From the NCBI GenBank assembly GCA_958296125.1, contig OY282444.1:558001-622000 (forward strand): 64,000 bases of DNA, read 5' to 3'. The stretch comes from an uncultured Poribacteria bacterium. GTDB lineage: Bacteria; Poribacteria; WGA-4E; PCPOR2b. Positions 4,723-23,649 of the stretch are shown here, one piece after another (position 1 is the stretch's first letter; the number at the start of each line of letters is the position of its first letter). Under the pieces are notes generated by a model. That model was not told where the DNA came from and did not search any database. It worked only from the letters and a program-made list of their open reading frames with translations. The position numbers and the translations under genes are program-made.

Positions 4723-6714
4723 CTATCTTAAAAGCCACGCTGCAATATCTTCCTCTGATACCGCTTTCGGCTCCACCTTTAACCGATCTGCGGCACCAAC
4801 AGCTTGGTAGACATCCGCGATCCAATCTGTCCGAAATGCGTTGTCGGTATTGTGGATAAGTAGATGTCGCGGTGCGACGAGCGTCCCAGCTGTGCGAAAA
4901 TCGCCGACTCGCCGAATGCTCGGAATGGGAACGGTATGGAGGTACGCTGCATCGCTATCGCTGTCGAACCGGTTAGCATCAACAACGGTACGAGCAACAT
5001 CAGCAAATCCAGCGGCGAGGAGGCACCACAAGCCCGCTTCTCCGAGTCCAATCAGATTAAGGGTTGACACCGACACTTGGGACTTCAGATATGCTAGTGC
5101 GGTCAAAATGTCCTGAATCCGAAGGGCGGCATCGGTGCGGTTGTAGGTGGTGAAGTATCTGAGGCTGTCATCCCGTATCACTTTTCCGTCAGCGGAGCTG
5201 TGCACACCGGTCAGAAACAGATCTACTCCCAAGACCGACTCCCCAGCGATGAGGAGGTCCGCCACCAAGCGTGTGGGTTGACCTGTCTCAGGGTTGATTA
5301 AATTCATCGCCCCTTGGGGGTGGACAATTAGCGTTGCCGAGCTGTTCTCCGCCTCCGTTTTGGGTGTCAAGAACAGAGCGGGAAGTTGGTCATTTCCACC
5401 AATCAGAAAGGGTTGAGCGGTGAAATCGGGCCCTTCAACGGGATTCGGGCGAGTCGAATCAGGAATACGGATGGCTAGTGAACGCCGGAGCGCGTCCCCC
5501 ATCTCCTTGCGGAATTGATCAAGTGATGCTGCGTTGGTCGGTTTACGCGCTGCAAGTTGCTCCTCGGCACTTTCGATCCGTGAACAGGTGAGCCCATCGG
5601 CATCAAGTGCGTGTTCGGGTAGTTCTCGATTATGAAAGACCAGCAGAGCCTGGTCCCTTTCCACTTCAAAGGGAACCTCTTTGAATTTTGTGGTGTCCTC
5701 TTCGCCTAAGAACCATTTTCCGAACCAAGCGTAGACCGCCTCACGGCTGTCCTTGTTGTAGTTATGTTCTGCGTCGATCTGCACCTCATGTATCTTGGCC
5801 TCCGCGTCAAAGTGTGCGTAGATGCTGCGAATTGCCGGATACTCGACTTTGGGTGTATCCTTCGTCCAATCTCCCGTCGCGGAAACGAGTAACAGGGGTT
5901 TCGGTGCCATCAGAGCACCAATTTCGATATTGCTGATGTCCAGTCGCAAGTTCGGTGCGTTCTCACAGAGGCAGCCGCCCTGCATGTGTGCGGAGATCAT
6001 GTTGACAGGCGCGGACACCTTGATTCGATCATCAACCGCCGTGAGCATGAACGTCTGTGTCCCTCCACCCGATGCGCCGGTGCAACCAATTCGATCAGCA
6101 TCTACATCGGATAGCGTCTCTAGGAAATCAACGGCTCGGACCCCGTTCCACAACTGAAGTGCCATCAGGCTCAAGCCCCAGAGTGCTTCGCGTTCCCCGC
6201 CGTAGGCGTGGTCGATCTGCTCCCCGCTGTCGCAGCGTCCTACCATGTCAAACGAAAAGATTACGTAGCCCTGTTTGGCGAAGTTTATACAACGCCCGGG
6301 AACCGAACCCGCTTCGCTGTTCTCTAACCGTCCTCTGCTCCAGTGCCCGTGCGGACTGACAATCCCCGGAAACGGTCCTTTCACCCCTTTTGGACGGTAT
6401 AGGTTTCCGGTGGTGAAAAAACCGGGGTAGGCTTCAAAGTAGACCTTCTCAACGGTGTAATCCTCGCGTTCAATCCGCCCGAAGATGTGGGCGTTCAGCG
6501 GCGTTTTTTCGGGCATCGGGGTCAACCCGTTGCTTACCAAAATATGTTCGCGAAGTTCTGCAGCTTGCGTCATCCATTCGGCTTTGGTATAGCCGGGAAA
6601 GGTGTAGAGTGTGTGAACATCTCGTGTTTGATAGACCCGCGTATCGTTTACCATTTGAGAGACTCCGGTGAATGGATCGACAAGTTCGCCGCGATGTTGG
6701 TCGGTGTTTGTCAT
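4723..6714 (-). CDS. two-domain alpha/beta hydrolase (acetyl-xylan-esterase/dienelactone-hydrolase type)
   Basis: I chose the ATG giving MTNTDQHRGEL at 6714, with GGAGAAAG just upstream; an in-frame start nine codons earlier is possible. The 663-residue protein has an N-terminal alpha/beta hydrolase domain. Its nucleophile motif is G-A-S-G-G (serine about 215 from this start), an oxyanion-type stretch is GIVSPHGHW, and the acid/histidine region is DAEHNYNKDSREAVYAWFGKWFLG. The last third looks like a second, degenerate hydrolase domain (TLIVHPQGAMN, then GLGEAGLWCLL). No signal peptide. Family relatives deacylate plant polysaccharides or small esters. It lies next to, and on the same strand as, an apionate-lactonase-like gene, consistent with plant-sugar use, but the substrate is unknown. 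Confidence 0.8.
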   Translation of the reverse strand: MTNTDQHRGELVDPFTGVSQMVNDTRVYQTRDVHTLYTFPGYTKAEWMTQAAELREHILVSNGLTPMPEKTPLNAHIFGRIEREDYTVEKVYFEAYPGFFTTGNLYRPKGVKGPFPGIVSPHGHWSRGRLENSEAGSVPGRCINFAKQGYVIFSFDMVGRCDSGEQIDHAYGGEREALWGLSLMALQLWNGVRAVDFLETLSDVDADRIGCTGASGGGTQTFMLTAVDDRIKVSAPVNMISAHMQGGCLCENAPNLRLDISNIEIGALMAPKPLLLVSATGDWTKDTPKVEYPAIRSIYAHFDAEAKIHEVQIDAEHNYNKDSREAVYAWFGKWFLGEEDTTKFKEVPFEVERDQALLVFHNRELPEHALDADGLTCSRIESAEEQLAARKPTNAASLDQFRKEMGDALRRSLAIRIPDSTRPNPVEGPDFTAQPFLIGGNDQLPALFLTPKTEAENSSATLIVHPQGAMNLINPETGQPTRLVADLLIAGESVLGVDLFLTGVHSSADGKVIRDDSLRYFTTYNRTDAALRIQDILTALAYLKSQVSVSTLNLIGLGEAGLWCLLAAGFADVARTVVDANRFDSDSDAAYLHTVPIPSIRRVGDFRTAGTLVAPRHLLIHNTDNAFRTDWIADVYQAVGAADRLKVEPKAVSEEDIAAWLLR

Positions 6715-6779
6715 TTCTTTCTCCATAAGAGTGAATTTCATGAATCATCTAGTAGACCACAAGTCAACCACAGGGGTTG

Positions 6780-6807
6780 TCCCTACAGAACCAACCGAAT
6801 GTAGGGA
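6780..6807. repeat. CCCCTACA hairpin repeat, copy 2
   Basis: TCCCTACA (6780-6787) / TGTAGGGA (6800-6807), then a GGTCTTGTGCCTGCCC module as in the copy at 4397-4450. It lies between the hydrolase and apionate-lactonase-like genes. It may act as a hairpin in the transcript but has no T-run. Confidence 0.65.
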
Positions 6808-6849
6808 TAGGTCTTGTGCCTGCCCAAAATATGGACAGTTTGCCAAATA

Positions 6850-8829
6850 TCAACAGAATTTACTATCAATTTGAGCGGTGGCGTAAGGGAGCAAGTTTAG
6901 CTCAAGCGTTCCTTCAGCGGACTCCACAAGCTCACCTATTTCCGCACGGAAGACTTCGGACGATGACATTGCGTATTGCGCGTTGGTTTCGTCTAAACAG
7001 CGAACCCGGACAGTTGCCGCCAAGTTTTGCACCCTGACCTGTTGTGAGTCGGGGGTCAAATTCGCAAGCAGGATTCGTGTTTTCCCATCCTTGCGGAGGG
7101 TGATCCCCTCCACCTTTAACGGATCGCTCGATTTTGAGGCCAATACCTCTCCTCCAACAAATTCGCCCACGTCAGCGAAGACGTGATAAAGCGGAAAGAC
7201 CGCGCCGGGCAGGGAACGGAATTTCTCTGGCAACGGCGAACCACTCGCCCTCTCCATCACGCCACGCCACCCGCTTGTCTCATAGTAGGTCACGCTGGAC
7301 GCACCGCTTTCCGAAAGATACTTGAGGCTGCCGAGCGTCCAACCTGCACCAAATAACGACATTTGCCGCACGTCAACCTGTGCAGGCAGCTCGCCCGGCG
7401 CAGGTTCGGGCTCAGGTCCGGTGGCGTTGGGATTGAAGCGTGCCAAGAGGGTGACAGGCGTAATCGCGATGGGTAATCCGTCTGCGAATTGCCGGGCACT
7501 TTCAACGGTCACCGCTTGCACACCCAGTGTCTCCATCAGCGAAGAATTGTCAAAGGCATGAACCTGTGGATTGATCGAATAGCAGACGAGGTCTAGCGTA
7601 TCCACAGGGGGATGCCCGCGATTCAGGTCGGTAAAATACGCATTGGTGCCCGCCCCAATCTTTGCATCGGTGAGGTAAGATCGGGCGAGGGCAACCCATT
7701 GGGCTGATGTGGAAGCCTCGGTTTTGTGGAAGATAAGATAGGTCCCGATCGGTGGCTTCACCCGCTCAACCACTTCGGCGAAGACGCGTAATTCTTCTGC
7801 TGCTGCATCGGTCAGGAAAAGGGCAAGCTCCAGCGATACCCCCAACGCCCGCGCTTCGTCCGTCGCTTGGCGCAGGGCAGATTCATAATCGGGTTGCATT
7901 AGATCGACATCCGCACGCAGATACGAAAGTTTGAGCCGCTTGAGGCGGTCCAACTCTTGCACCGTGAGCGGATCCCCGTGAGAGGCAACGCCCAACCCAA
8001 TTCGGGGGAGTGGTCGGGGGGCGGTAGATGAGATCTCCAAGGTGATCGGTTGAATCTGTGTGTCTTGCTTCTCACTCTTCTCTCTTATTGGTTCGCGCTG
8101 AGTCTTGAGGGTCAAGGTAATTGATTGGGAGATTTTCGTGCCGGCGGGGACTTCTACCGGAAAAGGTTGGCTCAACGGTGTGCCGTAGGTTTTGTAAGAG
8201 GCATCGGTCCAATTGCGCTGATCCTCCATCTCGAAAGTCTCGCCCTCAAATCGCACCGCTGCCTCAACCCCAGCATCAACCTCGTACCTGACTGCCCGCA
8301 TATTGTTGAACGGCGCGACCGGCTTAATCTCGCCATCGATTAGGTGTTGAGGGGCAATGAAGATTGGGAAGGAGCTCTCTTCAACCGTGCCATCTATCTT
8401 CTCAATACGGCAAGGGACACCTGCACAGCTCATCGGGTACAATACACAGAAGCCAATGCGGTTACGGCGGAAGGTCGAAAGTGCCTCTCCATCCATCGAG
8501 AAGGTGATAGCCCCATTTGCGTCTCCCGTGATTGTTCCCTGCCAAAAGAAATCGACATCAGCACCCTTGTTCTCCACATCGTAGGTGATGCGAAACGCGT
8601 TGCCCTCCCGTCCGATTTGAACCTTTGAGAGTTGGGGGAGTATGGTGTCCCAATTGTGATCGCGGACAGCCACATAGACCCGGCGGAGAATCTCGTGGTC
8701 GCCGAACCGAATGTAGCGTAGGTCACCCGCCTCAAAGATCACGGATAACGGACCCGCACGGAGTTCCGTCCGTTCTGGTAACGGTTCATCTTTTCCGTAG
8801 CGTAACACACTGAGTGGCAGTTGGCTCAT
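6850..8829 (-). CDS. D-apionate lactonase-like protein
   Basis: A 659-residue cytoplasmic-looking protein. From memory the N-terminal third matches ApnL-type D-apionate lactonases of apiose catabolism: RAGPLSVIFEAGDLRYIRFG near the start, then VYVAVRDHNWDT, FRRNRIGFCVLYP at about residue 140, and FEMEDQRNWTDASYKTYGTP at about 215. The middle forms a probable TIM-barrel-like domain and the last 150 residues a beta-domain. ApnL hydrolyses apionolactone to apionate, a step in using the branched plant sugar D-apiose. The other apiose genes (dehydrogenase, apionate-processing enzymes) are not adjacent, so the actual lactone may differ. AAAGGGAAAATTTT precedes the ATG. Confidence 0.65.
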   Translation of the reverse strand: MSQLPLSVLRYGKDEPLPERTELRAGPLSVIFEAGDLRYIRFGDHEILRRVYVAVRDHNWDTILPQLSKVQIGREGNAFRITYDVENKGADVDFFWQGTITGDANGAITFSMDGEALSTFRRNRIGFCVLYPMSCAGVPCRIEKIDGTVEESSFPIFIAPQHLIDGEIKPVAPFNNMRAVRYEVDAGVEAAVRFEGETFEMEDQRNWTDASYKTYGTPLSQPFPVEVPAGTKISQSITLTLKTQREPIREKSEKQDTQIQPITLEISSTAPRPLPRIGLGVASHGDPLTVQELDRLKRLKLSYLRADVDLMQPDYESALRQATDEARALGVSLELALFLTDAAAEELRVFAEVVERVKPPIGTYLIFHKTEASTSAQWVALARSYLTDAKIGAGTNAYFTDLNRGHPPVDTLDLVCYSINPQVHAFDNSSLMETLGVQAVTVESARQFADGLPIAITPVTLLARFNPNATGPEPEPAPGELPAQVDVRQMSLFGAGWTLGSLKYLSESGASSVTYYETSGWRGVMERASGSPLPEKFRSLPGAVFPLYHVFADVGEFVGGEVLASKSSDPLKVEGITLRKDGKTRILLANLTPDSQQVRVQNLAATVRVRCLDETNAQYAMSSSEVFRAEIGELVESAEGTLELNLLPYATAQIDSKFC

Positions 8830-9295
8830 AAAATTTTCCCTTTCGTGAAACGTGAGGCGTGAAATGTATAGCCATCACAGTAACCGTGAATTGCACAAGA
8901 CTATAGACGCGCATGTCTGGAATCCCTGCGCCGCCCTTCAGCATCGTTACTATGCTATCTACGGCAAGTCTATCGGCAAGTTTAGATTGATGAATCATAT
9001 CTCTAAACTCAAGCAACTCCCTCCCTGGCCTGCTTGTCCCCGATTGCATCGGGACAGGCCCGTTCGCGGGGCCCTCGGAACAGGGTCTCCCCGCAAGCGG
9101 GCCTGGTCTGTCCGTGCCGAGACCAGGCGGAACGGACACAGGCCTGCACACGGAACGGTGCGGAACGGACGCTTTGCCCAAGTGAACCGATGCACTCTGG
9201 AACCACTTTTGGTTGACAATCCCTGAGCACCTAGCATAAAATTAAGAGGTGATTTGGTAAAGGCTCGCTTAATTTTTCAAAGGGGGTATAAAGAG
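8830..9295. other. gene-free stretch carrying a GC-rich repeat island
   Basis: No gene is supported. A GTGAAACGTGA-type repeat lies near 8846-8860 and a TATAGCCATCAC module at about 8869. The GC-rich palindromic island follows from 9025. Plus-strand TTG/AAAGGGGG signals for the next gene start at about 9276. Confidence 0.6.
9025..9186. repeat. GC-rich palindromic repeat island A
   Basis: A mosaic of hairpin modules. CCTGGTCT (9102-9109) pairs with AGACCAGG (9120-9127), and TCCGTGCCG pairs with CGGAACGGA. The same modules, in another order, make island B at 16674-16804. Single copies are at 23803-23837 and inside tnpB. Confidence 0.75.
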
Positions 9296-9925
9296 ATGTC
9301 GGAAACATCGCATTTTGAACAATTCAAAAAAACCTTCGATGTCTATTTTGCGAAATGGTGGAAAGTTGGTGGCATTTTAATGCTACTCGTTTATCTACCT
9401 GCTTTTGGTCTGTACACAATCGGAATTCTCAACAAACACTTAGACATAGCCCTTCCGTCCTTTCTCCGTGCGATAGTCACCTTTGAATATTGGTCTTGGA
9501 CGAATGACATGGCAGTTGAAGCAATCGGTATCGGCTTTATCTCCGTTGGTGGATTGACTGTTGGTGTCATTTCTATCGGTGCCTGCTCCGTCGGTGTAGT
9601 TTCTATGGGTGCTTTCTCTGCCGGAATCGTTGCGGTCGGCGCGTTTTCTGTTGGTATTTTTGCGTTTGGTGGCAATTCTTTTGGGGTCATCGCTTTCGGG
9701 GCAGGTACACGTTATGGATACGAAATCGGCCCAAGGGGACGCTTTGACATCGGTAGATCGGTTGGGGTTATCGCCATCAGTCCTGAAGCCTACGGTGTCT
9801 ACACATTATCCTATACGGGCAGAGGTGTCTATACGCTCTCACCGGACCGCCAAGATGCCGACGCGGTTGCGTTGTTTACTCGTTGGCTGCCAAAGTTCAA
9901 GGAAGGATTGTCTCCTGCCTCTTAG
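9296..9925 (+). CDS. decapeptide-repeat membrane-anchored protein
   Basis: ATG at 9296 (MSETSHFEQF) chosen for the AAAGGGGG box 10 bases upstream. Residues about 24-45 (VGGILMLLVYLPAFGLYTIGIL) form a membrane segment. From G80 to R139 come six uninterrupted 10-residue repeats, consensus G-[VI]-x-[SA]-x-G-[AG]-x-[ST]-x, matching six 30-bp units in the DNA. A shorter C-terminal repeat GVYTLS occurs twice. Such regular Gly/Ser spacing suggests a beta-solenoid or an unusual membrane-embedded hairpin stack. I know no function. It is flanked by a GC-rich repeat island and the restriction-modification remnants, so it may belong to an accessory region. Confidence 0.75.
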   Translation: MSETSHFEQFKKTFDVYFAKWWKVGGILMLLVYLPAFGLYTIGILNKHLDIALPSFLRAIVTFEYWSWTNDMAVEAIGIGFISVGGLTVGVISIGACSVGVVSMGAFSAGIVAVGAFSVGIFAFGGNSFGVIAFGAGTRYGYEIGPRGRFDIGRSVGVIAISPEAYGVYTLSYTGRGVYTLSPDRQDADAVALFTRWLPKFKEGLSPAS

Positions 9926-10119
9926 CGCGGCATTCGGAACGAGAAAGGTTCAAGCCTGCATTCTTGAGATCTTTCCTTTCCCCTATGTTACTATAAAATC
10001 TTCGATATAACAAACGAAAATTCGATTAAAAAAGATCAGGGAAACCACAAGTTTCTTAATCCCGATCTATCTCTATCGGGGGGTTGCCCCTACAGAATCA
10101 ATCAACTAAAGAATACGAA

Positions 10120-10500
10120 ATGGCAAGCAAGAAACGAGACATAAAACCCAATAAAGACGGGGCGATGATCGATCGTGTTCATCGGGAATTAACAGATGAA
10201 GATATAACGCGCATCGCCGATACCTATCAGGCTTGGCGAGGTGATGAGGGCGCAGGCGCATACACCGACGTGCCCGGCTTCTGCAAAAGCATAACCATAG
10301 AGGAAGTACGCGAGCATAGCCACGTTTTGACCCCCGGCCGTTATGTTGGTGTGGCAGCTCAGGATGAGGGCAACGAAGCGTTTGAGGACACGATGGCAGG
10401 TCTAACCAAGAAACTGATTGAGCAAATGGCGGAGGCGCGGCGGTTGGATGCAGCGATCCGTAAGAATTTGGAAATGGTTGGGATCAGGGATAATTCATGA
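10120..10500 (+). pseudogene. hsdM fragment (C-terminal end of type I DNA methyltransferase)
   Basis: The 126 residues after the ATG at 10120 match only the end of type I modification subunits: [22 protein letters not shown], then [28 protein letters not shown] and a coiled C-terminus. The methylase core (SAM motif and NPPF) is absent. The sequence just upstream, at 10075-10105, is a CCCCTACA-type repeat, so the gene was cut at or beside a repeat. It overlaps the start of the next gene by 4 bases, preserving the old operon junction. Not functional as a methylase. Confidence 0.85.
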
Positions 10501-12251
10501 ATTTCAGGGACGAAGAAATTAGACGTCAAATACGCCTCGGTGAAGACAGCCACTGGGAATTCAAGGAGATTGAATTCGTGGGCAACGTTGCTAGGAGTCC
10601 ACGTCGCGATGATATAGCGGATGAACTCGCCGCATTTGCCAATACAGAGGGTGGTGTGGTGCTGTGTGGTATAACCGACAGCGGCGATGCACAAGGTATG
10701 TCCCGCGAGCAGATGGACGCGTTGGAGCGGCTCTTGGTGGAAGTTTGCACCGACATGATTAATCCCCCGATCCGGCCTGTCGTCCTTCGCAGAGAAACAG
10801 AGGAAGAAGTGCCATTCCTGCTAGTTGAAGTGCCACAAGGGCACACGCAGCACGACAGCCCCGGCGGCAGCTACCACCGAGTTGGCAGCTCAAAACGTCG
10901 GATGACGAGCGATGAGCGGCTGCGTCTGGCACAGCAGCGTGGACAGGCACGCTTCCTCTGGTTTGACAAACAGCCGGTGCCGGGAACCGGATTTGGATCC
11001 TTGGATGAATCACTTTGGAAACCTTTGTTAAGTGCCGTAGGGGCCGCCGATCCTGAATCTGCGCTGGAGAAGATGGGGCTCTTGACAAATGACGAAAACG
11101 GAACGATGCGGGCTACGGTAGCGGGTGTCTTGTTGTGCAGTCGTTCTCCCGAAGAATGGTTATCGAACGCCTGCATTGCCGCAACCTGTTACCGAGGCAA
11201 TGACCGTGCATCCGGGCAGATAGATGCCCAAACAATCACGGGCCCACTGAACCGACAAATTACTGAGGCGGTTGCCTTTGCGGTTCGCAACATGCGGGTC
11301 GGTGCTTACAAGAATCCCGCTCGTACCGACTTGCCCCAATACAGCGAGGCTGCCCTGTTTGAAGCGATTGTCAACGCCGTTGTCCACCGCGACTACTCAA
11401 TTCGCGGCAGCCGAATTCGATTCTCAATGTTTGCGGACCACCTTGAAATAAACTCTCCCGGCGGGTTGCCGAACAACCTGACCATTGACAGCATGGCAGT
11501 CCGTCAGTCAACGCGCAATGAAGCACTCGCCTCTATACTTGGGCGAATACCTGTTGGAGAGGTTCGGGGTTCGGGCGATCGGCAATTCTTCATGGAGCGA
11601 CGTGGGGACGGCGTGCCAACTATCTTTCGTGAGACAGAAGCTTTGAGCGGAAAGGCTCCAGAGTATCAACTAATTGATGATTCAGACCTTTTTCTCACAA
11701 TCCCTGCCGCTCCCACGGATGCGACACCGGCAACTACCGTAATCACGTGCCGCCACTGTGGCATCCCCGTGCCGGGAGTTGAGTTGTTGGCACTGTTTCC
11801 GAATAAGACATGGAAACACACGACCGTCGACGAAAATGGCGAGGCGCAAGTTGACCTGCATTCTACGCACCTTCCCATGACGGTGTTCGCAGCTGCTACC
11901 GGCTATGCCGCCCACCTTGAATATGACTGGGTGCCAGCGCAGGGGGCACTTGCAATTGAAATGCAAAGCCTGCCCAACGGTGGGGCGGTGATTTTTCCGG
12001 AGGCGACCGGACATCTTCCGGGCTTGTCGGGACGTTTGAATCCCAAACGCGATAACCATGACAGGACCTTTCTCTATGCCTCCAACATCGCCATCAACGA
12101 GGGCAAACAGCAGCCGGTTCATTTCATTCCCGGTGAGGATTTGCGCCTCACCGATGCCGATGGTAGAGAACTGGTGGTGCGTATTATCGCAATCATCGGT
12201 AGGTCTGCGCTGGTGGAGTATCGTCCTTATTTCAAAGGAGATGGAAAATGA
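10497..12251 (+). CDS. AlbA_2 (Schlafen-like) domain and GHKL-ATPase protein
   Basis: An intact 584-residue protein. An AlbA_2 domain is at about 12-130 ([28 protein letters not shown]). A HATPase_c_4-type domain is at about 285-370, with the N-box-like [13 protein letters not shown] at 289-301, the glycine-containing [11 protein letters not shown] and [12 protein letters not shown]. The last ~180 residues form an extra domain with a [10 protein letters not shown] stretch that I do not recognise. Proteins of this type commonly sit between hsdM and hsdS in type I restriction operons, which is the position here, with hsdM before and hsdS after. The role is unproven, perhaps regulatory or anti-phage. 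It may survive because it functions independently. Confidence 0.85.
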
Positions 12252-12379
12252 GTTTACAGTTGAACAGCTTGACCAAATCTATTGACGCTCTGGAACGTTC
12301 CGTTAAAATAGCGAGTAGATTGGATACCTCCGATGACGATTTGCAGGAAACGGTTCGCCTGGAGACACACAATGATTGA
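12248..12379 (+). pseudogene. truncated nucleotidyltransferase-partner (HI0074-like) gene
   Basis: The ATG at 12248 overlaps the end of the AlbA_2 gene by 4 bases. It encodes 43 residues ([20 protein letters not shown]) that resemble the N-terminus of HI0074/HEPN-like substrate-binding partners of MNT nucleotidyltransferases. These normally run to about 130-150 residues. The frame ends at 12379, inside the start of the MNT gene, so most of the helical bundle is missing. It is probably an internal deletion product. Confidence 0.6.
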
Positions 12380-12746
12380 CCTCACTCCCAAATATCTTGA
12401 AACGATTCAGCACATACTGGCTGAGTATGTACCTAAATGCGAAGTCCGCGCCTACGGGTCGCGGGTAAAATGGATGGCGAAGGATTATTCCGATCTGGAT
12501 CTCGCCGTCGTCGGCAGTGAGCCATTAAGCCGGGGACAGCTGCGTCGATTAAAAGAGGCTTTTGAGGAATCCGACGTGCCAATTCGGGTTGATGTGGTAG
12601 ATTGGCAGTCGATATCGGACTGGTTCAAGAAAGTGATTTTGGAGAAGTACGAGGTGATACAGGAAGCGGAGCCTGTTAAAGAAAACGAGCAATCCGGGAG
12701 AATTTCCGGGAAGCGGGATATGATGTGTGACTTTCCCGATAGGTAG
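12372..12746 (+). CDS. MNT-domain nucleotidyltransferase (HI0073-like)
   Basis: ATG at 12372, overlapping the truncated partner gene by 8 bases. The 124-residue protein has the minimal nucleotidyltransferase signature G29-S30-X10-D41-X-D43 and the third acidic residue in RVDVVDW (D74). MNT proteins act with HEPN partners as toxin-antitoxin pairs in which MNT usually nucleotidylates and neutralises HEPN. The partner here is truncated, so an orphan antitoxin-like enzyme is a reasonable reading. The last 25 residues (EPVKENEQSGRISGKRD) look unlike the family and may be read-through into junction sequence. Confidence 0.8.
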   Translation: MIDLTPKYLETIQHILAEYVPKCEVRAYGSRVKWMAKDYSDLDLAVVGSEPLSRGQLRRLKEAFEESDVPIRVDVVDWQSISDWFKKVILEKYEVIQEAEPVKENEQSGRISGKRDMMCDFPDR

Positions 12747-12770
12747 CAACTTCGATCCATAGAAGACAGC

Positions 12771-12887
12771 ATGAAAGTAATCATTGATTATCGCGATAAA
12801 ACGCCACGTAAAACTCTATTTGGTATCCCGCTAATTACAGCGAAGATTGTCAAAGATGGTCGAATAATGACACCAAACGTTGTCTAG
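12771..12887 (+). pseudogene. hsdS fragment
   Basis: 38 residues beginning [15 protein letters not shown] and continuing [15 protein letters not shown]. These match the start of a target-recognition domain of type I specificity subunits (IDYRGKTP...[13 protein letters not shown]). The frame stops after TPNVV, where the sequence passes into hsdR material, so most of the roughly 400-residue subunit is gone. Confidence 0.7.
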
Positions 12888-13336
12888 AGTGGCACACCGA
12901 CGATGACAAGGGGGGAGCGATCAAGGTTGTGATGACAGGTTCGTCTGATGATGATGCGTCGTGGCAACCGCATATCCGAAATAAGGCTCGACGAGAAGAG
13001 ATTGCAGTACGATTCAAAAACCCCAAGGACCCATTGAAAGTGGTGATTGTTCGCGATATGTGGCTCACCGGATTTGATGCGCCGAGTCTTCACACCATGT
13101 ATGTAGACAAGCCGATGCGTGGACACGGGTTGATGCAGGCTATCGCCCGCGTCAATCGCGTGTTCCGGCGTAACGTGACTATCGACTGGACGATAAAGGA
13201 GAGTGTCCGCGCTAAGCTACGGGTGATGGTGAAGCGTGTCCTTCTCAGATACGACTATCCACCTGGCAAACAAGCCAAAGCCATCAAAACGGTTTTGGAA
13301 CAGGCCGAGGCGTTGTGTGTGGATTGGGCGGCATAG
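12888..13336 (+). pseudogene. hsdR fragment (type I restriction subunit), internally deleted
   Basis: From about 12888 the frame reads [18 protein letters not shown], then [11 protein letters not shown] and [20 protein letters not shown]. It ends the helicase part with [14 protein letters not shown], the motif VI region of type I restriction helicase subunits. It then jumps straight to [22 protein letters not shown], which normally lies several hundred residues later near the C-terminus. N-terminal nuclease and first helicase domain are missing. The frame itself has no internal stop. It cannot be a working restriction enzyme. Confidence 0.85.
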
Positions 13337-13366
13337 AAAGGGGCCCGCCCGCTAACGATCCAACGG

Positions 13367-14620
13367 TTACTCGCCCTCATAACCCATCTCCTCCCAAACC
13401 TCCCGGGCAGAAGCAATAGCGTCCTCGCTCGGCGGATTAAATCCGTTGATGCTGGGCGGCGGTTGACCGGGCCCTTGGTGTTCGGGCCAAGGAGACCAGT
13501 GATCGTTCTCGTAATCCACCCTGACGGATTCTCGGCGAAAATCTGGAATCTCGTAGGGTGCCCCGTTATCCAGACATGACCGCCACGCTTGAATCCCGAC
13601 CATTGCCATCTCAAGTCCACGATAGACATCGAAATAGGGTGTTTCGTTTTTGCGGATGGCTTCGGCGAAATGGTAGCTTGTGAAGAAATCGCCGCCGCTA
13701 TGTCCTGCCCGTCGTGCCTCCTCAGCGTGGTGGGGAAAATCTGGTGCATAAATCTTTTCGCGTTCATCACCTTCCCGCAGATCCCACGGCTCGTGCATCA
13801 CGCGCAGGGAGTCGGGGGCACCAGATCGTAGGTTCTCCATCAGTCCACGTGTGCCGTGAATCCGATACCAGACCCCGTGCCCGCGCATCTTCAATCCCAT
13901 AATCCGGGCGATCGAGTTGTTGTCCATGCGGCAGAGGATGATGCCGCCGGGGTCGCCTCGCTGGACATTCAATTTTTCGGTGTCGTTCTCGGAACGGGGG
14001 ATTGACAGCGCGTTCACACTAACCGGATGGGTGTCGGTGATGTACATAATCGGTGCAAGCGCGTGAGAGCAGTAGTAGGTAGACGGAATCCAGTTGCGCC
14101 AGTGATTCATCCCCGGTGCTAATAGATTATAACCCCGTGAATCGAAGGGGTGGTTATACTCTCCTTCGCCGTATTGCATCTCGCCGACCTCGCCGTTCTT
14201 ATAAAGGCGACGCATCTCCTGATTGTAGGCAAAATAGGGGTAATTCTCGGCGAACAGATAGATCTTGCCGGACTTATCCACCGCTCGCGCCAATGCTACA
14301 CCCTCCGCCAGTGTCCCACACGCGGTTGTTTCACTCATCACATGTATTCCCGCCTCAAGGGCTTTGACGGCGAAGGGAGCGTGCTGATGAAAGTAGTTCG
14401 CCAAAACAATAGCGTCCATATCGTGAGAGAGAAACTCTTCGTAATCCGTGTATGTCGCAACGTTTAACTTTTTCCCCGCCCCCCGCAGCTTCGTTTCCCA
14501 CGTATCGCACAGTGCGACCAGTTCCATGCCAACAAAGGGAGCCCCCTGCGCGAATCCCATACCGCGCCCGACCCCAACGACACCGACGCGGATTTTATTT
14601 TGATCGTTTTTCTTTGTCAT
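13367..14620 (-). CDS. Gfo/Idh/MocA-family oxidoreductase
   Basis: A 417-residue NAD(P)-dependent oxidoreductase. The Rossmann motif VGVVGVGRGMGFA is at about 12-24 and the substrate-side motif with the EKP-like position reads SETTACGTLAEG. The C-terminal beta-sheet dimerisation domain follows. The canonical EKP is changed to E-T-T-A, which is seen in some of the more divergent members. It carries a WPEHQGPGQPPPSINGF tail. Family members act on sugars and cyclitols, and the substrate is unknown. It converges with the hsdR fragment 30 bp away. Confidence 0.9.
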   Translation of the reverse strand: MTKKNDQNKIRVGVVGVGRGMGFAQGAPFVGMELVALCDTWETKLRGAGKKLNVATYTDYEEFLSHDMDAIVLANYFHQHAPFAVKALEAGIHVMSETTACGTLAEGVALARAVDKSGKIYLFAENYPYFAYNQEMRRLYKNGEVGEMQYGEGEYNHPFDSRGYNLLAPGMNHWRNWIPSTYYCSHALAPIMYITDTHPVSVNALSIPRSENDTEKLNVQRGDPGGIILCRMDNNSIARIMGLKMRGHGVWYRIHGTRGLMENLRSGAPDSLRVMHEPWDLREGDEREKIYAPDFPHHAEEARRAGHSGGDFFTSYHFAEAIRKNETPYFDVYRGLEMAMVGIQAWRSCLDNGAPYEIPDFRRESVRVDYENDHWSPWPEHQGPGQPPPSINGFNPPSEDAIASAREVWEEMGYEGE

Positions 14621-14665
14621 GAGATTGTCTCCTATAGGAGAACAGGTAGGTTCTCCTCAACTGAG

Positions 14666-16597
14666 TTAATTTTGTGGGGCGATTTGAGTGGATAAAGCTT
14701 CGATGAGTTCATCTAAGTGGACGTGTCGGAAAAACTCTGAAAGCCGCTTCTGCTTCAGTTTCATCGGGAGCAAGATAAAATCCGCACAATATTCTTGGAG
14801 GCGTTCAAACACCTTGCGGTAGGCTTGGCTTGTGGCATATCCGACAACCAAAGTATAGTGGTCGTTGTGCTTATCAAGATAGGCTTTGAATCGATCTGCC
14901 CCTAGCTGTATCTGCGCGGTATTTCTGGGAGATAATTGGAAATCATAGCGCACGACGGGCCCCTCAGATTCAAATTCTTCTGGTACTGGACCGTAGAGCC
15001 CGGAAAGGGTAATTTTGTGAATCGCCCGTTGATTGTCCCCAAAAGCATTTTGAAGCTTGGTGTTGATGATAGTATGGGTCCGTGAAAGTGAATACGGCTT
15101 TTTTCCTGCACATGGAATTGCCAAAAGAATCTTTTTATCTGTCGGGGGTTCGTAATCTGCTGGAATGGAAAAGGAATCGGGCGTATAATCCAGTGAAATC
15201 GTCGGTTGTTCTTTCTGAAGGGCTGAATCCGTTTCTTTTTTTGACAGTGCCGGAAAAAGTTCCAATTGATAAGGGTTTCCCCCGACCGGATGCCGTTTTT
15301 CTGGCGTGGAAAGGCCAACAGCGGTCTTTGCCATACGGTTGGCAAACTCTTTATTATTTTCCATCAACCAACCTACCGCGTTACGGATACCTCGCCCTGT
15401 CGATGTTGAGGCATGATGGACTAATTCTTCGAGTGCCTCATCGGCTTCAATAGCATCCTTCATGCGAGAAAGCAGTCCCACTTCCAACTCGAAATTATGC
15501 AGGGCGATCGCCGCATAACATTCGCTTTTGTATTTTCCGGTTGAAGTCGGTTTGTAGCTTACCTCTTCCATTAAGGTGCGTTGCATCTCATCAAGGGAAA
15601 CCTCCCGACAAATGCGGCAAGTGCAGGTCAGTTCATCCAATTCCATCAGTTTTCGCTTCGTTCGCGTCAATGGGTCTGAATAGTTGAGTCCACGTGCTGC
15701 TTGAATGTAGCTGGTACTGTCAAAGCTATCGACACCCATGTAAGCCAGTATAGGTGCCAATTCACCGGAGACACCGAAGGCGTGGATAGGGGTGTGGTAT
15801 CGTTCTGACTCTGGAATCGCTTTTTGCACTCCGCAGATCCGCTCAAGCACCGCCGAATCTTGTTTCCCCCGCAATGGCACTAAAGAACCAACCGCAAGCC
15901 CAAATGAGGGCAGCACCCCCAAAAGCCGGTCGAAAACCTGCCTAACATAGCTCTCGATATCCGATTGGGATTGTCCATGACAGCAAACGTATAAAAAGGG
16001 CGGTTGTGCTTTGGCGGTAAGCAATGTAGCAAGGCGGCAGGCATTCTCCAGACTTAGGTTCATCCGTTTCTTAGCTTCGGAGCGTTCCAAACCCGGTGGT
16101 AACGGATAATCTAAAGAAGCGATAATTTCACCCCCGAAGTCTTCTTGCAGTGCGAAAATATCATCGGCTTCGGTCTCCTTTTCAATTCCAAATTTCTGTA
16201 GGTCTAATCCTGTCTTGTAGAGCAGCTTAAATCCACCGGAGTCGAGAAATAGTGGGGCATTATAAACACCGTTTACCTCTTGATACCATTCACGCATTGT
16301 TTTTTGACGCCACTTCCTTAAATGTTTTCCCTCAAACGGGAAGTCCAGAAAGTGCAGGACTTGGGATAACATCGGCACATCGCGTTTCATCAAGTCCCGG
16401 AGAAGGTACTTCCAGAGGCCTCCTCCGCGAGGAGTAGAGCCGGTCATAAATGAAACCACCGGATACAACATCGGTGTTGACAAAGGTGGTACGATTTCGC
16501 CATTTCGTTGTAAACGAAGTTCACCAATTCTGCCGCCATTTCTCTGAACGATTGTATGGTACGTTGGAGTTATGTTCATAGCACAATGTTTTTCCAC
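14666..16597 (-). CDS. TGT-like transglycosylase fused to an ArcS-type (DUF5591) domain
   Basis: A 643-residue protein of two parts. Residues 30-370 are a complete tRNA-guanine-transglycosylase-type catalytic barrel: DSGGF (D119, general base), SLDYP (D163), GLAVGSL (234-240), nucleophile region GVDSFDS (D293) and the zinc site C325-X-C-X2-C330 with H367. Residues about 488-600 resemble the core of archaeosine synthase: PC-X3-K500-PYSLSRTH, then GPVPEEF and VVRYDF. In archaea these activities are separate proteins: TGT puts preQ0 in tRNA and ArcS adds lysine to it. In bacteria a TGT paralogue, DpdA, modifies DNA. No PUA domain is seen, arguing against archaeal-type tRNA binding. A DNA methyltransferase gene lies 458 bp upstream. 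The start codon is uncertain: GTG at 16597 or ATG at 16579. Confidence 0.75.
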   Translation of the reverse strand: MEKHCAMNITPTYHTIVQRNGGRIGELRLQRNGEIVPPLSTPMLYPVVSFMTGSTPRGGGLWKYLLRDLMKRDVPMLSQVLHFLDFPFEGKHLRKWRQKTMREWYQEVNGVYNAPLFLDSGGFKLLYKTGLDLQKFGIEKETEADDIFALQEDFGGEIIASLDYPLPPGLERSEAKKRMNLSLENACRLATLLTAKAQPPFLYVCCHGQSQSDIESYVRQVFDRLLGVLPSFGLAVGSLVPLRGKQDSAVLERICGVQKAIPESERYHTPIHAFGVSGELAPILAYMGVDSFDSTSYIQAARGLNYSDPLTRTKRKLMELDELTCTCRICREVSLDEMQRTLMEEVSYKPTSTGKYKSECYAAIALHNFELEVGLLSRMKDAIEADEALEELVHHASTSTGRGIRNAVGWLMENNKEFANRMAKTAVGLSTPEKRHPVGGNPYQLELFPALSKKETDSALQKEQPTISLDYTPDSFSIPADYEPPTDKKILLAIPCAGKKPYSLSRTHTIINTKLQNAFGDNQRAIHKITLSGLYGPVPEEFESEGPVVRYDFQLSPRNTAQIQLGADRFKAYLDKHNDHYTLVVGYATSQAYRKVFERLQEYCADFILLPMKLKQKRLSEFFRHVHLDELIEALSTQIAPQN

Positions 16598-16645
16598 CAG
16601 TCCATTTAAGCACTAGCAACGCAAGAGGATTGAGCGAAATCCGTC

Positions 16646-16667
16646 TTACAGATAGGGGCTTTAGCCC
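16646..16667 (+). repeat. 22-bp repeat shared with 41008-41029
   Basis: TTACAGATAGGGGCTTTAGC plus CC. The exact reverse complement is at 41008-41029. Its 3' half is self-complementary (GGGCTTTAGCCC). Confidence 0.75.
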
Positions 16668-16673
16668 GTAAAG

Positions 16674-16804
16674 CCCAAGTATTGTCCGTTCCGCCTGCCT
16701 GCCCGGTCTCGGCACGGACTCCCCAATTGCATCGGGCCTGCCCTCGGAACGGGGACAGGCCCGTTCGCGGGGGTCTCGGCACGGACAGACCAGGTATACT
16801 TGGG
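16674..16804. repeat. GC-rich palindromic repeat island B, bounded by 9-bp inverted repeats
   Basis: CCCAAGTAT (16674-16682) and ATACTTGGG (16796-16804) are perfect inverted repeats enclosing about 113 bp of TCCGTTCCG / CGGCACGGA / GACAGGCCCGTTCGCGG modules, the same modules as island A. It looks like a small non-coding mobile element. Confidence 0.7.
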
Positions 16805-17055
16805 ATATAAGTTTCGCTTTAGCGTTCTTTTCTTGAGACCATTGTTGAAATATGTTACTCTTAGTATGTCCTTGTGGGAGAGGTCAACGCCATCGCCTGA
16901 TGGTGTCTCCCACACCCATTGACAGGGCGTGAAGGACGAAGGACCCCTTTATGAAAACCTACAAGTTCAAGATGTATAGCCATCACGCGTATGTTCGGAC
17001 AATTTCGAGAGTGCTTCCTGCCTTTCCATGTGCAACCCCTCTAATGAATGCCTGA

Positions 17056-17907
17056 TTAATTCTCAGATAGCTCATTGAGCCGCCTTTGGGCAATCTGGTT
17101 ATACGATTCTTCCTTCTCAATCATCACCCATTTTCGGTTCTGTTTTTCCGCTACAACTCCGGTCGTCCCAGTCCCTGAGAATGGATCAAGAATAAGGTCA
17201 CCTTCATTGGTTCCTGCTAAGATGAGCCGCTCAACGACCTCAAGCGGCTTTTGCGAAGGGTGTTTCCCATATTTTCGTTCCGAAGGCTTAATTAGCGGAA
17301 TTTCCCACATATTCCGCATCTGCTTGTTATTATTCATCGCCTTCATCGTCTCATAATTGAAAGTCCAATTCATCGCCTTCTTACTTTCATTGTTGACCGC
17401 CCACAAGATGAACTCAGTAGACTCTGTAAACATTCGACAGGTAATATTGGGCTGTGCATTCGGTTTATACCAGACAATTTGGGTAATAATTCGCCGGTCA
17501 AATATATTTTGCAGAACAAATCCAAGTGTAAAGATGCTGTGAAATGAACCGAAAACAAAGATATTCCCGTTTGGCTTGACGACTCTCAGGACTTCAGTGA
17601 CCCAATCGAGTGTGAACTGGAAATATTCGTCTTTTGAAAAAATATCCCAACCTTCTTGCATGGTAATATGGGAACTGAACGCCCAACCCAATCCCTTCTT
17701 TTGAGACATATTGAACGGAGGATCAGCGATGCAGCAATCGAAGGCACCGCGCGGCAAAGAAGGCAGAATACTGAGGCAATCACCGCATAAAATCTGCCTG
17801 ATGGGCAGGTTTTCAAGTGGAGTGTCCGGGGATGGCGAGTATCTTCTTAATCCACGTTTTTTCACCTCTTTCCTCAGATCTTTGTCTCGCATTTGATCAA
17901 AATTCAT
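17056..17907 (-). CDS. DNA methyltransferase, beta class (probable N6-adenine or N4-cytosine)
   Basis: Catalytic motif IV is D-P-P-F at about residue 62 and the SAM motif (FSGTGTTGVV preceded by ILDP) at about 240. The order IV before I is the beta class. HPSQKPLEVVERLI is the usual segment ahead of motif I. I chose the ATG of MNFDQMRDKDLRK at 17907 because of AAGGAAG upstream; a GTG start at 17961 would add 18 residues. No restriction endonuclease gene is adjacent, so it is probably an orphan or partner of another DNA-modifying system. The TGT-like gene follows on the same strand. Confidence 0.9.
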   Translation of the reverse strand: MNFDQMRDKDLRKEVKKRGLRRYSPSPDTPLENLPIRQILCGDCLSILPSLPRGAFDCCIADPPFNMSQKKGLGWAFSSHITMQEGWDIFSKDEYFQFTLDWVTEVLRVVKPNGNIFVFGSFHSIFTLGFVLQNIFDRRIITQIVWYKPNAQPNITCRMFTESTEFILWAVNNESKKAMNWTFNYETMKAMNNNKQMRNMWEIPLIKPSERKYGKHPSQKPLEVVERLILAGTNEGDLILDPFSGTGTTGVVAEKQNRKWVMIEKEESYNQIAQRRLNELSEN

Positions 17908-18074
17908 TGGTTTGCACTTCCTTGATTCTTTGATAGACAGGTCAATCTTTTGATTCTCCACAATCCATCTGTTGTATAGTCGTTACTTTTTCGTTTACTG
18001 CCAATGTTCCCTCGTCCAATCGCACGTCATACGCCTCCCGTGCTGTTTGAAGAAAAACCATACCGTAGGCTTTC

Positions 18075-19670
18075 CTATGCGCGTCGCAGGACCTGCCCCC
18101 TGCGCTCCCCGGTCAATTCCCCGTCTTTCAGAGTCACCTTTCCATTGACGATGACATGGTGCATGCCAATGGCAGTTTGGTTCGGCTCAAAGGTGGTGCC
18201 CTGATCCGCAAAGGTCACCGGATCGAAAATTGCCACATCCGCCCACGCTCCCTTGCGAAGCACACCCCGGTCGGTTAAACCGAGGCGGCTGGCTGGCAGC
18301 GACGTGAGTCGGCGGATAGCCTCTTGCGGGCTGAGGGTCTTTTTGTTACGCACAAAGTGCCGGTAGAACCAAGACACCCATGTGTATGCACCGTGGAACG
18401 AGGTCCCTGCTAAAGGACCGTCGATCGCTAGAGCGGTAGCGTCGGAGCCGACCATACAACTGGGGTGCTCAAAAGCAATGCGAATATCTTCTTCCCGATA
18501 GGTGAAGGCAAGAATCATCAGACTGTGGAGGTCATCGATTTCAGCGAGCAGGAGATTGTAGATAGCATCGAATGGGGCAACCCCCGTCAATTCGCTGATT
18601 TCAGCGATGCTCCTGCGGGAGAATTCGGGGTGCGCTTTGCTGTCAAAGAGAACAATGTTGTTCCAATCCCCCCGTGCCAAGGCGGTGATGATACTGTGAT
18701 AGGTTTTCAACTCTCGACGGGTGGCAGCCGATCGTAGCCGTGCGGCAATGGAGGCTTTGTCCCCTTCAAGCACCCACGGCGGCAGGGCAGCACTCAAGTT
18801 GGTAGTCCCGAACAACCGTGTGTGCATATCAAAACCGACATCTAACCCGCTATCCTGTGCTTCGTCAACCTGCCTGAGAGCATCTTCGATCGCCCGTCGT
18901 CCATCTTCAGCGAGCCGCGCAACCACGGAGATATGGGAGATCTGTAAAGGCAGGTTTGATGCGGCCCCAGTCCGGATTGCCTCCGCGATAGCCTCCTGCG
19001 CTTCCCCGTCTCGATTGCGGGTATGGGTCGCATAGAATCCTTCGGCATCAGATGCCACTCGACAGAGTTCAACAATCTCCGCTTCCGTACAGTCCCTTTC
19101 GGGTCCGTATTCAAGGCCTGTAGAAAAACCGAACGCCCCTTCCTCCATGCTCTGTGCTAGCAGGGTCTTCATTTGTTTAAGTTCATCCGGCGTTGAGGGG
19201 CGATCTACTAGTCCGGCGACAGCGAGGCGCAGGTTGCCGTTCGGAACGAGGGATGCAACGTTGATCGCTGGCTTTCCCGTTTCAAGAGACTCAAGGTATT
19301 CGGCCATTGTGCGCCAGCCGATCTCGTAACCCGCTTGGTATCCATAGATGTTCATTTTTGCCAACCCCGGGTCGCCGATGGGCGCACATCCATGGCCGCA
19401 GTTGCCAATGACTTCAAGGGTCACGCCTTGGGTTATTGAACTCATCGCCCGCGGGTCAACAATCATCGTGAAATCGGAATGGCTGTGGATATCAATGAAG
19501 CCGGGCGCGACAAAGAGGCCTTGCGTCTCCAAACATGGCACACCGTCCCGTTTTTCGATCGTCCCAATGTCGAGGATTCTGCCATCTTTGATTGCCACGT
19601 CTGCACGGAAGGGTGGGGCTGCCGTGCCATCAATAACCGTCCCATCGTGAATCAGCAGATCAGCCTGCAT
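18075..19670 (-). CDS. N-acyl-D-amino-acid deacylase-like amidohydrolase
   Basis: A 531-residue member of the D-aminoacylase branch of the amidohydrolase superfamily, which hydrolyses N-acyl-D-amino acids or related amides and carbamoyl compounds. The N-terminal beta-domain DLLIHDGTVIDGTAAPP and metal motif GFIDIHSHSDF (about 58-68) are visible. ITQGVTLEVIGNCGHGCAP and the C-terminal VIVNGKVTLKDGELTGERRGQVLRR are typical. It follows the SDR gene by 32 bp on the same strand, so hyuB, SDR and deacylase may form one operon for amide/hydantoin-type substrates. The exact substrate is not evident. Confidence 0.9.
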   Translation of the reverse strand: MQADLLIHDGTVIDGTAAPPFRADVAIKDGRILDIGTIEKRDGVPCLETQGLFVAPGFIDIHSHSDFTMIVDPRAMSSITQGVTLEVIGNCGHGCAPIGDPGLAKMNIYGYQAGYEIGWRTMAEYLESLETGKPAINVASLVPNGNLRLAVAGLVDRPSTPDELKQMKTLLAQSMEEGAFGFSTGLEYGPERDCTEAEIVELCRVASDAEGFYATHTRNRDGEAQEAIAEAIRTGAASNLPLQISHISVVARLAEDGRRAIEDALRQVDEAQDSGLDVGFDMHTRLFGTTNLSAALPPWVLEGDKASIAARLRSAATRRELKTYHSIITALARGDWNNIVLFDSKAHPEFSRRSIAEISELTGVAPFDAIYNLLLAEIDDLHSLMILAFTYREEDIRIAFEHPSCMVGSDATALAIDGPLAGTSFHGAYTWVSWFYRHFVRNKKTLSPQEAIRRLTSLPASRLGLTDRGVLRKGAWADVAIFDPVTFADQGTTFEPNQTAIGMHHVIVNGKVTLKDGELTGERRGQVLRRA

Positions 19671-22329: not shown

Positions 22330-23649
22330 TCAGGCTCCATCACGGAAAGGTATATTGACTGCTCCCAATGTTAAAACATTGGGATTCTTATGATAGACTA
22401 AACAGGAGTAGTCCGTGCCGAGACATGGCTTGCCCTGTGCTATCGCAGCCCAAACCTGATTCGACGATTCGCGCCTCACATGCTGAGGGCTTACAGAATC
22501 TCCACAAGCGTTTAACGTCTCCGAGTGCCCCTCGGCGACGGTTCTCAGGTTTATTGCAGCGTTGAGGTCTCGGTCTTGGGTATGCCCACAATCGCTGCAA
22601 TGATATGTCCTATCAGACAAAGATAAGTCGCTGTCTACCCCACCGCATGCAGAACAGGTCTTGCTTGACGGATAAAATCTGTCTGCTTCAACAATCTTTA
22701 CGTCCATCGCATCCGATTTATACTTCAGCATCTCAAGGAACGTTGACAGGGACGCATCGGCTAACGCTTTAGCAAGTTTATGATTCTTTATCATACCCGC
22801 GACGTTTAACGATTCTATGCCGATACGACTTGCACCTTTGACAATAGCCGTTGTCGCCTTATGATGGGTGTCTTTGCGAATACAAGTTATCCGATAGTGT
22901 AACTTGGCTATCTTGTCTTTCAGTTTATACCAGTTGCGGCTGCCTTTTACCTTGCGACTGAATTGACGCTGAAGGCGTTTGAGTTTCCGTTCATGCCGAC
23001 GCAACGCCTTCGGGTTCTCGAAATACTGTCTTTCCGACGTGACTGCTAAGTGTTTAATACCCACGTCTACACCAACAATAGGGTCCGTTCCGAGACCAGG
23101 CTTGCCACGCGGGTCGGTCCGTTCCGAGACCAGGGGTATGGGGTCATCAACGAATGTATCAACGAGAATAGAAGCAAACCACCGATGTCCCTGTTTAGAA
23201 ATAACAACTTTGCAGATAGTGCCAAGGTAGCGCAGGTTTTGAAACATGCGAACCCAACCGATTTTGGGAAGTTTAATTCGCTTGCCTACGACAGAAATTG
23301 TGCCTCGACCGCTATCAGCTTGGTAACTCTTGCTATGAGACCGTTTCTTAAACTTAGGGAATCTGTTTTGACCCGACCGCCACCGTTTGACTGCATCGTT
23401 GAGATTTGTGTAAATCGCATTTTTTGATACACATTGTGACATGGCTTTACACCAGGCGTATGTATCATACTTGACAGCATTGAAACGATTTAGGAGCGCT
23501 ATATGCGAATGCCAGACATTTTCATCGAGCCCTGTTTTGAAGTCGGCTAATCCGTGGTTATAGGCGACGCGGGCGTAACCGCAATGCTGGGCAAACTGTG
23601 TCGCTTGGACATTATTTGGAGTTAAAGCAATTTTGTGAGTTTTTAACAT
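22330..23649 (-). CDS. tnpB: TnpB-type RNA-guided endonuclease of IS200/IS605 element
   Basis: 439 residues. The RuvC triad is present: D195 (GVDVGIKHLAV), E279 (GIESLNVAGM) and D361 (DRDLNAAINL), with zinc cysteines C332, C335, C351 and C354. So the nuclease core looks intact. TnpB cuts DNA guided by an omega-RNA made from the element's 3' end. Residues 173-190 (LVSERTDPRGKPGLGTDP), just before the first catalytic Asp, are encoded by two tandem palindromic repeats. Residues 406-413 come from a third copy. The last ~15 residues are encoded across a hairpin that is probably the right end. No TnpA transposase gene is next to it. Confidence 0.92.
   Translation of the reverse strand: MLKTHKIALTPNNVQATQFAQHCGYARVAYNHGLADFKTGLDENVWHSHIALLNRFNAVKYDTYAWCKAMSQCVSKNAIYTNLNDAVKRWRSGQNRFPKFKKRSHSKSYQADSGRGTISVVGKRIKLPKIGWVRMFQNLRYLGTICKVVISKQGHRWFASILVDTFVDDPIPLVSERTDPRGKPGLGTDPIVGVDVGIKHLAVTSERQYFENPKALRRHERKLKRLQRQFSRKVKGSRNWYKLKDKIAKLHYRITCIRKDTHHKATTAIVKGASRIGIESLNVAGMIKNHKLAKALADASLSTFLEMLKYKSDAMDVKIVEADRFYPSSKTCSACGGVDSDLSLSDRTYHCSDCGHTQDRDLNAAINLRTVAEGHSETLNACGDSVSPQHVRRESSNQVWAAIAQGKPCLGTDYSCLVYHKNPNVLTLGAVNIPFRDGA
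22363..22384. repeat. right-end hairpin of the TnpB element
   Basis: TCCCAATGTT / AACATTGGGA with a two-base loop: a perfect 10-bp stem inside the final codons of tnpB, 36 bp from the hyuB ATG. It is suited to be the subterminal hairpin recognised by IS200/IS605 transposase and part of the omega-RNA. Confidence 0.7.
22411..22434. repeat. palindromic-repeat module in tnpB, third copy
   Basis: GTCCGTGCCGAGACATGGCT, then TGCC; three differences from the copy at 23083. It is read in frame as G-K-P-C-L-G-T-D near the C-terminus of TnpB. Confidence 0.7.
23083..23134. repeat. two palindromic-repeat modules in tnpB
   Basis: GTCCGTTCCGAGACCAGG occurs twice (23083-23100 and 23117-23134), separated by 16 bases. 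They are read in two different frames of the same protein: LVSERTD and PGLGTDP. Confidence 0.8.

Follow-up and report, generated by a model that had tools for sequence, protein, structure and literature searches.

Does a single bacterial protein combine the insertion of a 7-deazaguanine base into a nucleic acid with the chemical finishing of that base, and on which nucleic acid would it act? The question is raised by a gene in 64,000 nucleotides of contig OY282444.1 (positions 558,001 to 622,000, assembly GCA_958296125.1; this whole stretch is called the window below) from an uncultured Poribacteria bacterium, whose related genomes are those of Candidatus Poribacteria. The gene (window 14666..16579, minus strand) encodes 637 amino acids from the ATG at 16579; the open frame (14666-16597, minus strand) also offers a GTG at 16597 (643 amino acids), and the fit to aligned homologues suggests the ATG as the true start. 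In a Pfam scan, residues 112-393 (15419..16264, minus strand) matched the catalytic barrel of tRNA-guanine transglycosylase (TGT; PF01702, 52.7 bits, cut-off 26.3), and residues 481-604 (14786..15157, minus strand) matched DUF5591, the core of ArcS (PF17884, 57.1 bits, cut-off 26). A previous interpretation made from the letters of this DNA (the sequence-only reading) had described a single polypeptide that carries a TGT domain and one of ArcS type, the latter at residues 488-600, and had seen no PUA domain; both domains exceed their cut-offs, the ArcS core covers that interval, and no PUA domain was matched. Searches of the PDB by sequence gave arcTGT (1iq8) for the N-terminal half and AF0587 (2q07) for the C-terminal half. 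AlphaFold models, which were run without the sequences of plasmid-borne homologues and which reached a mean predicted local distance difference test score (pLDDT) of 83.7 for the whole protein and 87.4 for the C-terminal domain, retrieved the same two structures, with 2q07 as the sole confident match of the C-terminal domain.

The catalytic, zinc-binding and ArcS-motif residues named in the sequence-only reading were all found where it had placed them, and were compared across 22 homologues from five phyla (Poribacteria, Cyanobacteria, Chloroflexota, a Planctomycetota metagenome-assembled genome (MAG) labelled Kuenenia, and haloarchaea). D119, D163 and D293 of the barrel are invariant, as is the zinc site C325-x-C327-x2-C330...H367 (15497..15625, minus strand), and thus the catalytic aspartate pair and the CxCx2C...H zinc site that define the TGT superfamily are both present. 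In the ArcS motif P-C-x3-K-P-Y-x2-S-x2-H (residues 495-508; 15074..15115, minus strand), P495, C496, K500, P501, Y502 and S505 are invariant and H508 is kept in 21 of the 22 homologues, the lone exception being a phenylalanine in the Thermosporothrix locus L074. DUF5591 was found in 16 of 59 Poribacterial genomes (the own genome and relatives of the same order), every time fused to a TGT (in G048 and the incomplete G007 it runs over more than one contig or frame), and the fusion occurs in 4 of 386 cyanobacteria. The ratio of nonsynonymous to synonymous substitution rates (dN/dS) of the window copy was 0.10 against G001 and 0.09 against G006, alike in both domains, by which measure this copy is under purifying selection. 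Because the same fusion recurs in 16 of the 59 Poribacteria and dN/dS is about 0.1, it is more than a chance joining: one chain with a TGT domain and an ArcS core is confirmed as a real fusion.

The protein missed the cut-off of every NCBI equivalog model to which it was compared. The best TGT model for the N-terminal half was the archaeal tRNA-TGT (TgtA, TIGR00432; 78.6 bits, cut-off 350), followed by DpdA (NF041059; 25.2 bits, cut-off 200) and the queuosine TGT (TIGR00430; 24.5 bits, cut-off 306.75); the TGT-ArcS protein scored 90.8 bits with ArcS (NF040592; cut-off 440), and the C-terminal half alone matched only ArcS (62.7 bits) and the Thermoplasma-type ArcS (41.6 bits). Since all cut-offs were missed, the fusion lies outside these families: by profile score it does not qualify as an ordinary tRNA-TGT, as DpdA or as a full-length ArcS. 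In a tree of the TGT core, which is indicative because a single archaeal TGT segment was taken in, 15 fusions fell on one side of a branch with weak support (74/54), apart from both included tRNA-TGTs; the DpdA/DUF6884 TGTs formed a separate branch (support 100/100), and the nearest neighbours of the fusions were short stand-alone TGTs from defence islands. The separation from ordinary tRNA-TGT that the earlier reading had anticipated is thus seen with moderate support against one archaeal reference, and that from DpdA holds in score and in tree.

A supply of preQ0 (7-cyano-7-deazaguanine) is expected in the host for queuosine, because its genome encodes QueC (at 0.20 Mb) and a canonical queuosine TGT (at 3.129 Mb; PF01702, 555.7 bits), and with the latter separately encoded the fusion is not required for queuosine. 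QueC is present in all 16 Poribacterial hosts of TGT-ArcS (that of G008 is incomplete, lying where a contig ends); of 12 further hosts, 10 have a clear QueC and two, both MAGs, gave weak matches only (the twelve include G069, a further Poribacterium, and G070 is likewise a Poribacterium); a preQ0 pathway, which the sequence-only reading had made a test of its proposal, is therefore found in nearly all hosts. RaSEA (TIGR01210) was not found above the cut-off in the 59 Poribacteria and the 12 other hosts. QueD-like genes, assigned to the PTPS/QueD family by E-value but scoring below the equivalog cut-off, accompany several copies: in G007 (L075, 6029-6415) one stops 1 nucleotide short of the TGT-ArcS ATG at 6417, and in G008 (L026, 5416-5841) one lies a little upstream, separated from TGT-ArcS by a histidine kinase gene. 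This adjacency ties the fusion family to preQ0; the QueD-like genes may serve specifically to supply preQ0, or may be pterin enzymes that have diverged. In the own genome an intact QueD-like gene stands beside a relic of TGT-ArcS (L041:6352-7055, C1 at ~1.004 Mb), of which about 50 C-terminal residues and N-terminal scraps are left, flanked by the same genes as the intact copy of G004 and G005 (collinear in blastn on both sides). The relic thus occupies the G004/G005 site and the window copy is a second locus; from this comparison, the genome has lost one copy and retains another in the window. Such losses and gains, and the scattered occurrence, are more in keeping with a defence or mobile gene than with one for tRNA housekeeping.

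We consider it probable that the protein is a bifunctional, Dpd-like 7-deazaguanine hypermodification enzyme, acting most likely on DNA, which would insert preQ0 and then convert its nitrile, most likely with lysine. The intact TGT active site suggests a first step in which the barrel would swap a guanine of the target strand for free preQ0 that the host makes for queuosine, and the ArcS core suggests a second, in which the DUF5591 domain would attack the preQ0 nitrile after insertion and couple it to a nitrogen donor, most likely lysine. RaSEA is the radical S-adenosylmethionine enzyme that turns preQ0-Lys into archaeosine. In its absence the pathway would stop at the preQ0-Lys adduct, provided that the domain does not work with ammonia or water instead. 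ArcS of T. kodakarensis acts on the preQ0 nucleoside, faster when it carries a 5'-phosphate, and not on the free base, and ArcTGT is unable to exchange preQ0-Lys out again (PMC11298593); insertion must then precede the lysine step, the lysine, once added, would also hold the base in the target, and a fusion of the two modules would make chemical sense. We infer the DNA target, the lysine donor and the role of the mark; a mark on DNA is made probable by the relatives of the gene in anti-phage gene clusters. In the defence operons of other phyla it might identify the DNA as self or prime a sensor, for which a DpdJ-like helicase, or a DUF262 sensor with a HEPN RNase, would be candidates; by analogy, DUF262 would act like the GmrSD/SspE-type proteins (PMC10952713) and HEPN as an RNase effector (PMC3710099). 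More tentatively, and with less confidence than in the two-step chemistry, we propose that preQ0 insertion and lysine addition in one polypeptide could yield a stable, positively charged preQ0-Lys base in bacterial DNA, which would serve Dpd-like systems, whether these work through DpdJ-like helicases or through DUF262-HEPN effectors, as a mark of self or as a signal.

The surroundings of the homologues support the connection to DNA and defence far more than does the methyltransferase gene of the window. In cyanobacteria, a DUF262/GmrSD_N gene and a HEPN (MAE_28990-like) gene lie downstream of TGT-ArcS in six loci (L066, L067, L068, L078, L079 and L091); in L071 the pair is degraded, and in L090 the DUF262 gene stands at the contig end. 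These orthologues are ~55-97% identical, so that the gene set has been retained over real divergence. The cyanobacterial DUF262 protein matched the NsnA model at 208 bits and that of PD-T4-2_A at 144 bits. PD-T4-2 itself is listed with DUF262 and HEPN (PMC10952713); the cyanobacterial cassette differs from it by the added base-modifying enzyme. MAE_28990 HEPN genes are reported to share operons with a DNA methylase and a nuclease of the ParB type (PMC3710099), and by analogy TGT-ArcS would take the place of the methylase. One cyanobacterial locus (L091 in G186, 7765-15448) is a four-gene operon of TGT-ArcS, a DpdJ-like helicase, DUF262 and HEPN, and looks like a compact, uncharacterised defence system. 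Its helicase family also follows TGT-ArcS in L070 and L072 and has a relative in L081; these helicases, which accompany homologues in cyanobacteria, Chloroflexota and haloarchaeal plasmids, scored 172 (L091), 198 (L072) and 161 bits (L081) with DpdJ (NF041067), far below the equivalog cut-off of 800. The haloarchaeal plasmid loci L080 and L081 are islands with YprA-like helicases, and L081 (Haladaptatus plasmid, 5680-19607) carries two TGT-ArcS genes, a short TGT, a DUF6884 gene and the DpdJ-like helicase. In Poribacteria, Mrr-type and MutH-like nucleases lie upstream of TGT-ArcS in L028, and in L031 the gene next upstream encodes a PLD-Snf2 helicase, with an Eco57I-type methylase beyond it. 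In Thermosporothrix (L074), NurA and HerA are directly upstream. Two other Poribacteria carry a different fusion, with DUF6884 N-terminal and then TGT, which groups with DpdA (L039:9021-10946 and L040:9094-10863); a UvrD-like helicase gene is near the former, and the latter adjoins relatives of the L074 NurA and HerA genes.

Several observations weigh against a Dpd-like enzyme acting on DNA. The TGT half scores best with the archaeal tRNA-TGT and not with DpdA, the clade of fusions is weakly supported, and the proposal as a whole draws on sequence, fold models and gene context. No DpdJ was found in Poribacteria by a search that matched no control genome either, several Poribacterial copies adjoin metabolic genes (alcohol dehydrogenase, GFO/IDH), and the window locus is without a restriction partner. 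Finally, the choice of lysine as donor follows the archaeal enzymes, and for ArcS of M. jannaschii a direct synthesis of G+ has been reported, with NH4+, Asn or Gln as donor (quoted in PMC11298593).

The last point speaks for a variant of the proposal, compatible with its first step, in which the same enzyme would act on DNA and DUF5591 would use ammonia, giving 2'-deoxyarchaeosine (dG+), or water, giving 2'-deoxy-7-amido-7-deazaguanosine (dADG), so that the base would be one already known; we regard this as rather unlikely, and less so than any other alternative. It is consistent with the DNA of the ArcS-encoding Vibrio phage nt-1, which holds dADG and a little dG+ besides 2'-deoxy-7-cyano-7-deazaguanosine (dPreQ0), the lysine adduct not being among the bases reported (PMC6884629), an absence that was nevertheless counted against the variant. 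It would also agree with a weak profile match between DUF5591 and DUF6884/YaaA-type domains, the fold group of DpdC. This homology (22% probability, E 1e-3, a tiny alignment) was not confirmed by fold, YaaA not being among the fold-search matches listed; the two domain types share the collinear motifs C-x2-K and LS-x2-YG-x-[VI]P (residues 484-544, window ~14966-15148), and a remote homology of the ArcS core to the DpdC-type fold is possible on these motifs. Against the use of ammonia or water stand the lysine transfer reported for three other ArcS proteins (PMC11298593) and the ArcS motif, which the fusion retains whole.

A tRNA enzyme, which would place preQ0-Lys or an archaeosine-like base in bacterial tRNA, for example at G15 of the D-loop, appears decidedly unlikely to us. 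In its favour, profile and fold both place the TGT part closest to archaeal tRNA-TGT, and some copies adjoin housekeeping genes at a conserved place. The PUA domain is reportedly dispensable in archaeal TGT (Sabina and Soll 2006, cited in PMC6790972), so that its lack in the fusion is by itself not evidence for DNA. These points are set against the patchy spread, the gene turnover and the repeated defence context in several phyla, the position of the fusions apart from both tRNA-TGTs in the tree, the failure to find RaSEA above the cut-off, and H207 (motif C-H-G-Q), which is histidine in 22 of 22 fusions and glutamine in both aligned tRNA-TGTs. That the gene is a decaying or sensor-only TGT-like protein without nucleic-acid modification in its host, as the decayed restriction-modification genes of the region and the relic copy elsewhere in the genome might suggest, is very improbable in view of the low dN/dS in both domains and the catalytic residues, all of which are intact.

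The bifunctional hypermodification enzyme proposed here shares features with several known systems. With the archaeal pathway of ArcTGT, ArcS and RaSEA it has the catalytic modules in common, the TGT being nearest to TgtA and the C-terminal domain to the ArcS core, whereas Archaea split the activities and add PUA and RaSEA. It resembles Dpd in the occurrence of a TGT paralogue in a defence setting, with a DpdJ-like helicase beside or near several fusion homologues (L091, L072, L081), but differs in joining the nitrile step to the TGT and in its DpdA score far under the cut-off; neither DpdB nor DpdC was recognised among the scanned neighbours of the homologues, and no Dpd restriction gene (DpdJ etc.) forms an operon with TGT-ArcS in the window. 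By fold (Foldseek, BFVD), phage nt-1 appears to have the same two modules, in an uncharacterised protein (R9TGF0, rank 2) and a 'DUF5591 domain-containing protein' (R9TEI9, rank 13), which, with the 7-deazaguanines in its DNA, speaks for the proposal. R9TGF0 is probably the published nt-1 DpdA2. In nt-1 these are two separate phage proteins, beyond the reach of tblastn, whereas the fusion is one cellular protein; no close relatives were found by sequence search in viral contigs or phage records, a DUF262 query likewise had no match in viral contigs, and the link to phage proteins is by Foldseek only. The plasmid homologues L080 and L081, with Dpd-like and Druantia/ARMADA-like YprA helicases, recall BRIGADE, which is reported only from haloarchaea, in a paper whose main text is silent on TGT and ArcS (PMC12458937). 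BRIGADE is recognised by two YprA-like helicases and a 7-deazaguanine cluster in a haloarchaeon, a combination that the window does not hold, and most fusion homologues are bacterial and in other operons; membership is plausible for L080 and L081 only. BRC systems, which combine GNAT and TGT with PglZ and HerA in a paper that does not mention ArcS (PMC12839542), are similar in that TGT lies near HerA in L074 or near GNAT in L025; PglZ, DUF6079 and DUF4007 were not recognised among the scanned neighbours, the scan covering part of the flanking genes. In L025 the GNAT acetyltransferase gene (12591-13085) begins 6 nucleotides after TGT-ArcS.

If the proposal is correct, the insertion and finishing steps of a 7-deazaguanine modification are joined in one enzyme, and an amino-acid-bearing base would possibly be added to those of bacterial DNA, where such a preQ0-Lys base is so far unknown. 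The role of the phage ArcS homologues, which was left open in PMC6884629, would become testable with a simple cellular enzyme. The proposal also points to the cyanobacterial cassette of TGT-ArcS, DUF262 and HEPN, once with a DpdJ-like helicase, as a compact defence-like system. The public annotation of the haloarchaeal plasmid copies reads only 'tRNA-guanine transglycosylase', and neither a mention of DUF5591 nor a description of the fusion was found in the open-access literature searched.

In the window itself, the nearest gene upstream on the same strand encodes a beta-class (CcrM/HinfI-like) DNA methyltransferase (17056..17961, minus strand; PF01555, 180 bits, nearest named model CcrM), which the sequence-only reading had singled out as a neighbour pointing to DNA. 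The gene is there as described; the link to TGT-ArcS is weak. Between the two genes, 14 codons (16994..17035, minus strand; tblastn 12 of 14 identical, E 8e-4) remain of a MutH/MvaI-like restriction endonuclease that is intact at 7762-8379 in L024, where G006 has the methyltransferase, the MutH-like nuclease and TGT-ArcS whole. The window methyltransferase is whole and its nuclease is reduced to this remnant, which makes it an orphan of a type II restriction-modification system. It was rejected as the main partner of TGT-ArcS, being absent from most homologous loci and having a nuclease partner of its own in L024; taken as a whole, the earlier interpretation is partly supported. In the window, TGT-ArcS would stand alone as a modification enzyme, one that is subject to purifying selection. 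On the opposite strand, fragments of a decayed type I restriction-modification system were found, namely the C-terminal part of an N6-methylase (10084-10500, plus strand) and that of HsdR (12929-13336, plus strand), with a Schlafen AlbA_2 gene and a nucleotidyltransferase amid these remains (10084-13336, plus strand); in G001 (L023) the HsdR near TGT-ArcS is still intact. Farther along, an IS605 OrfB/TnpB-type transposase gene with a Cas12f1-like TNB domain is located at 22330-23649 (minus strand).

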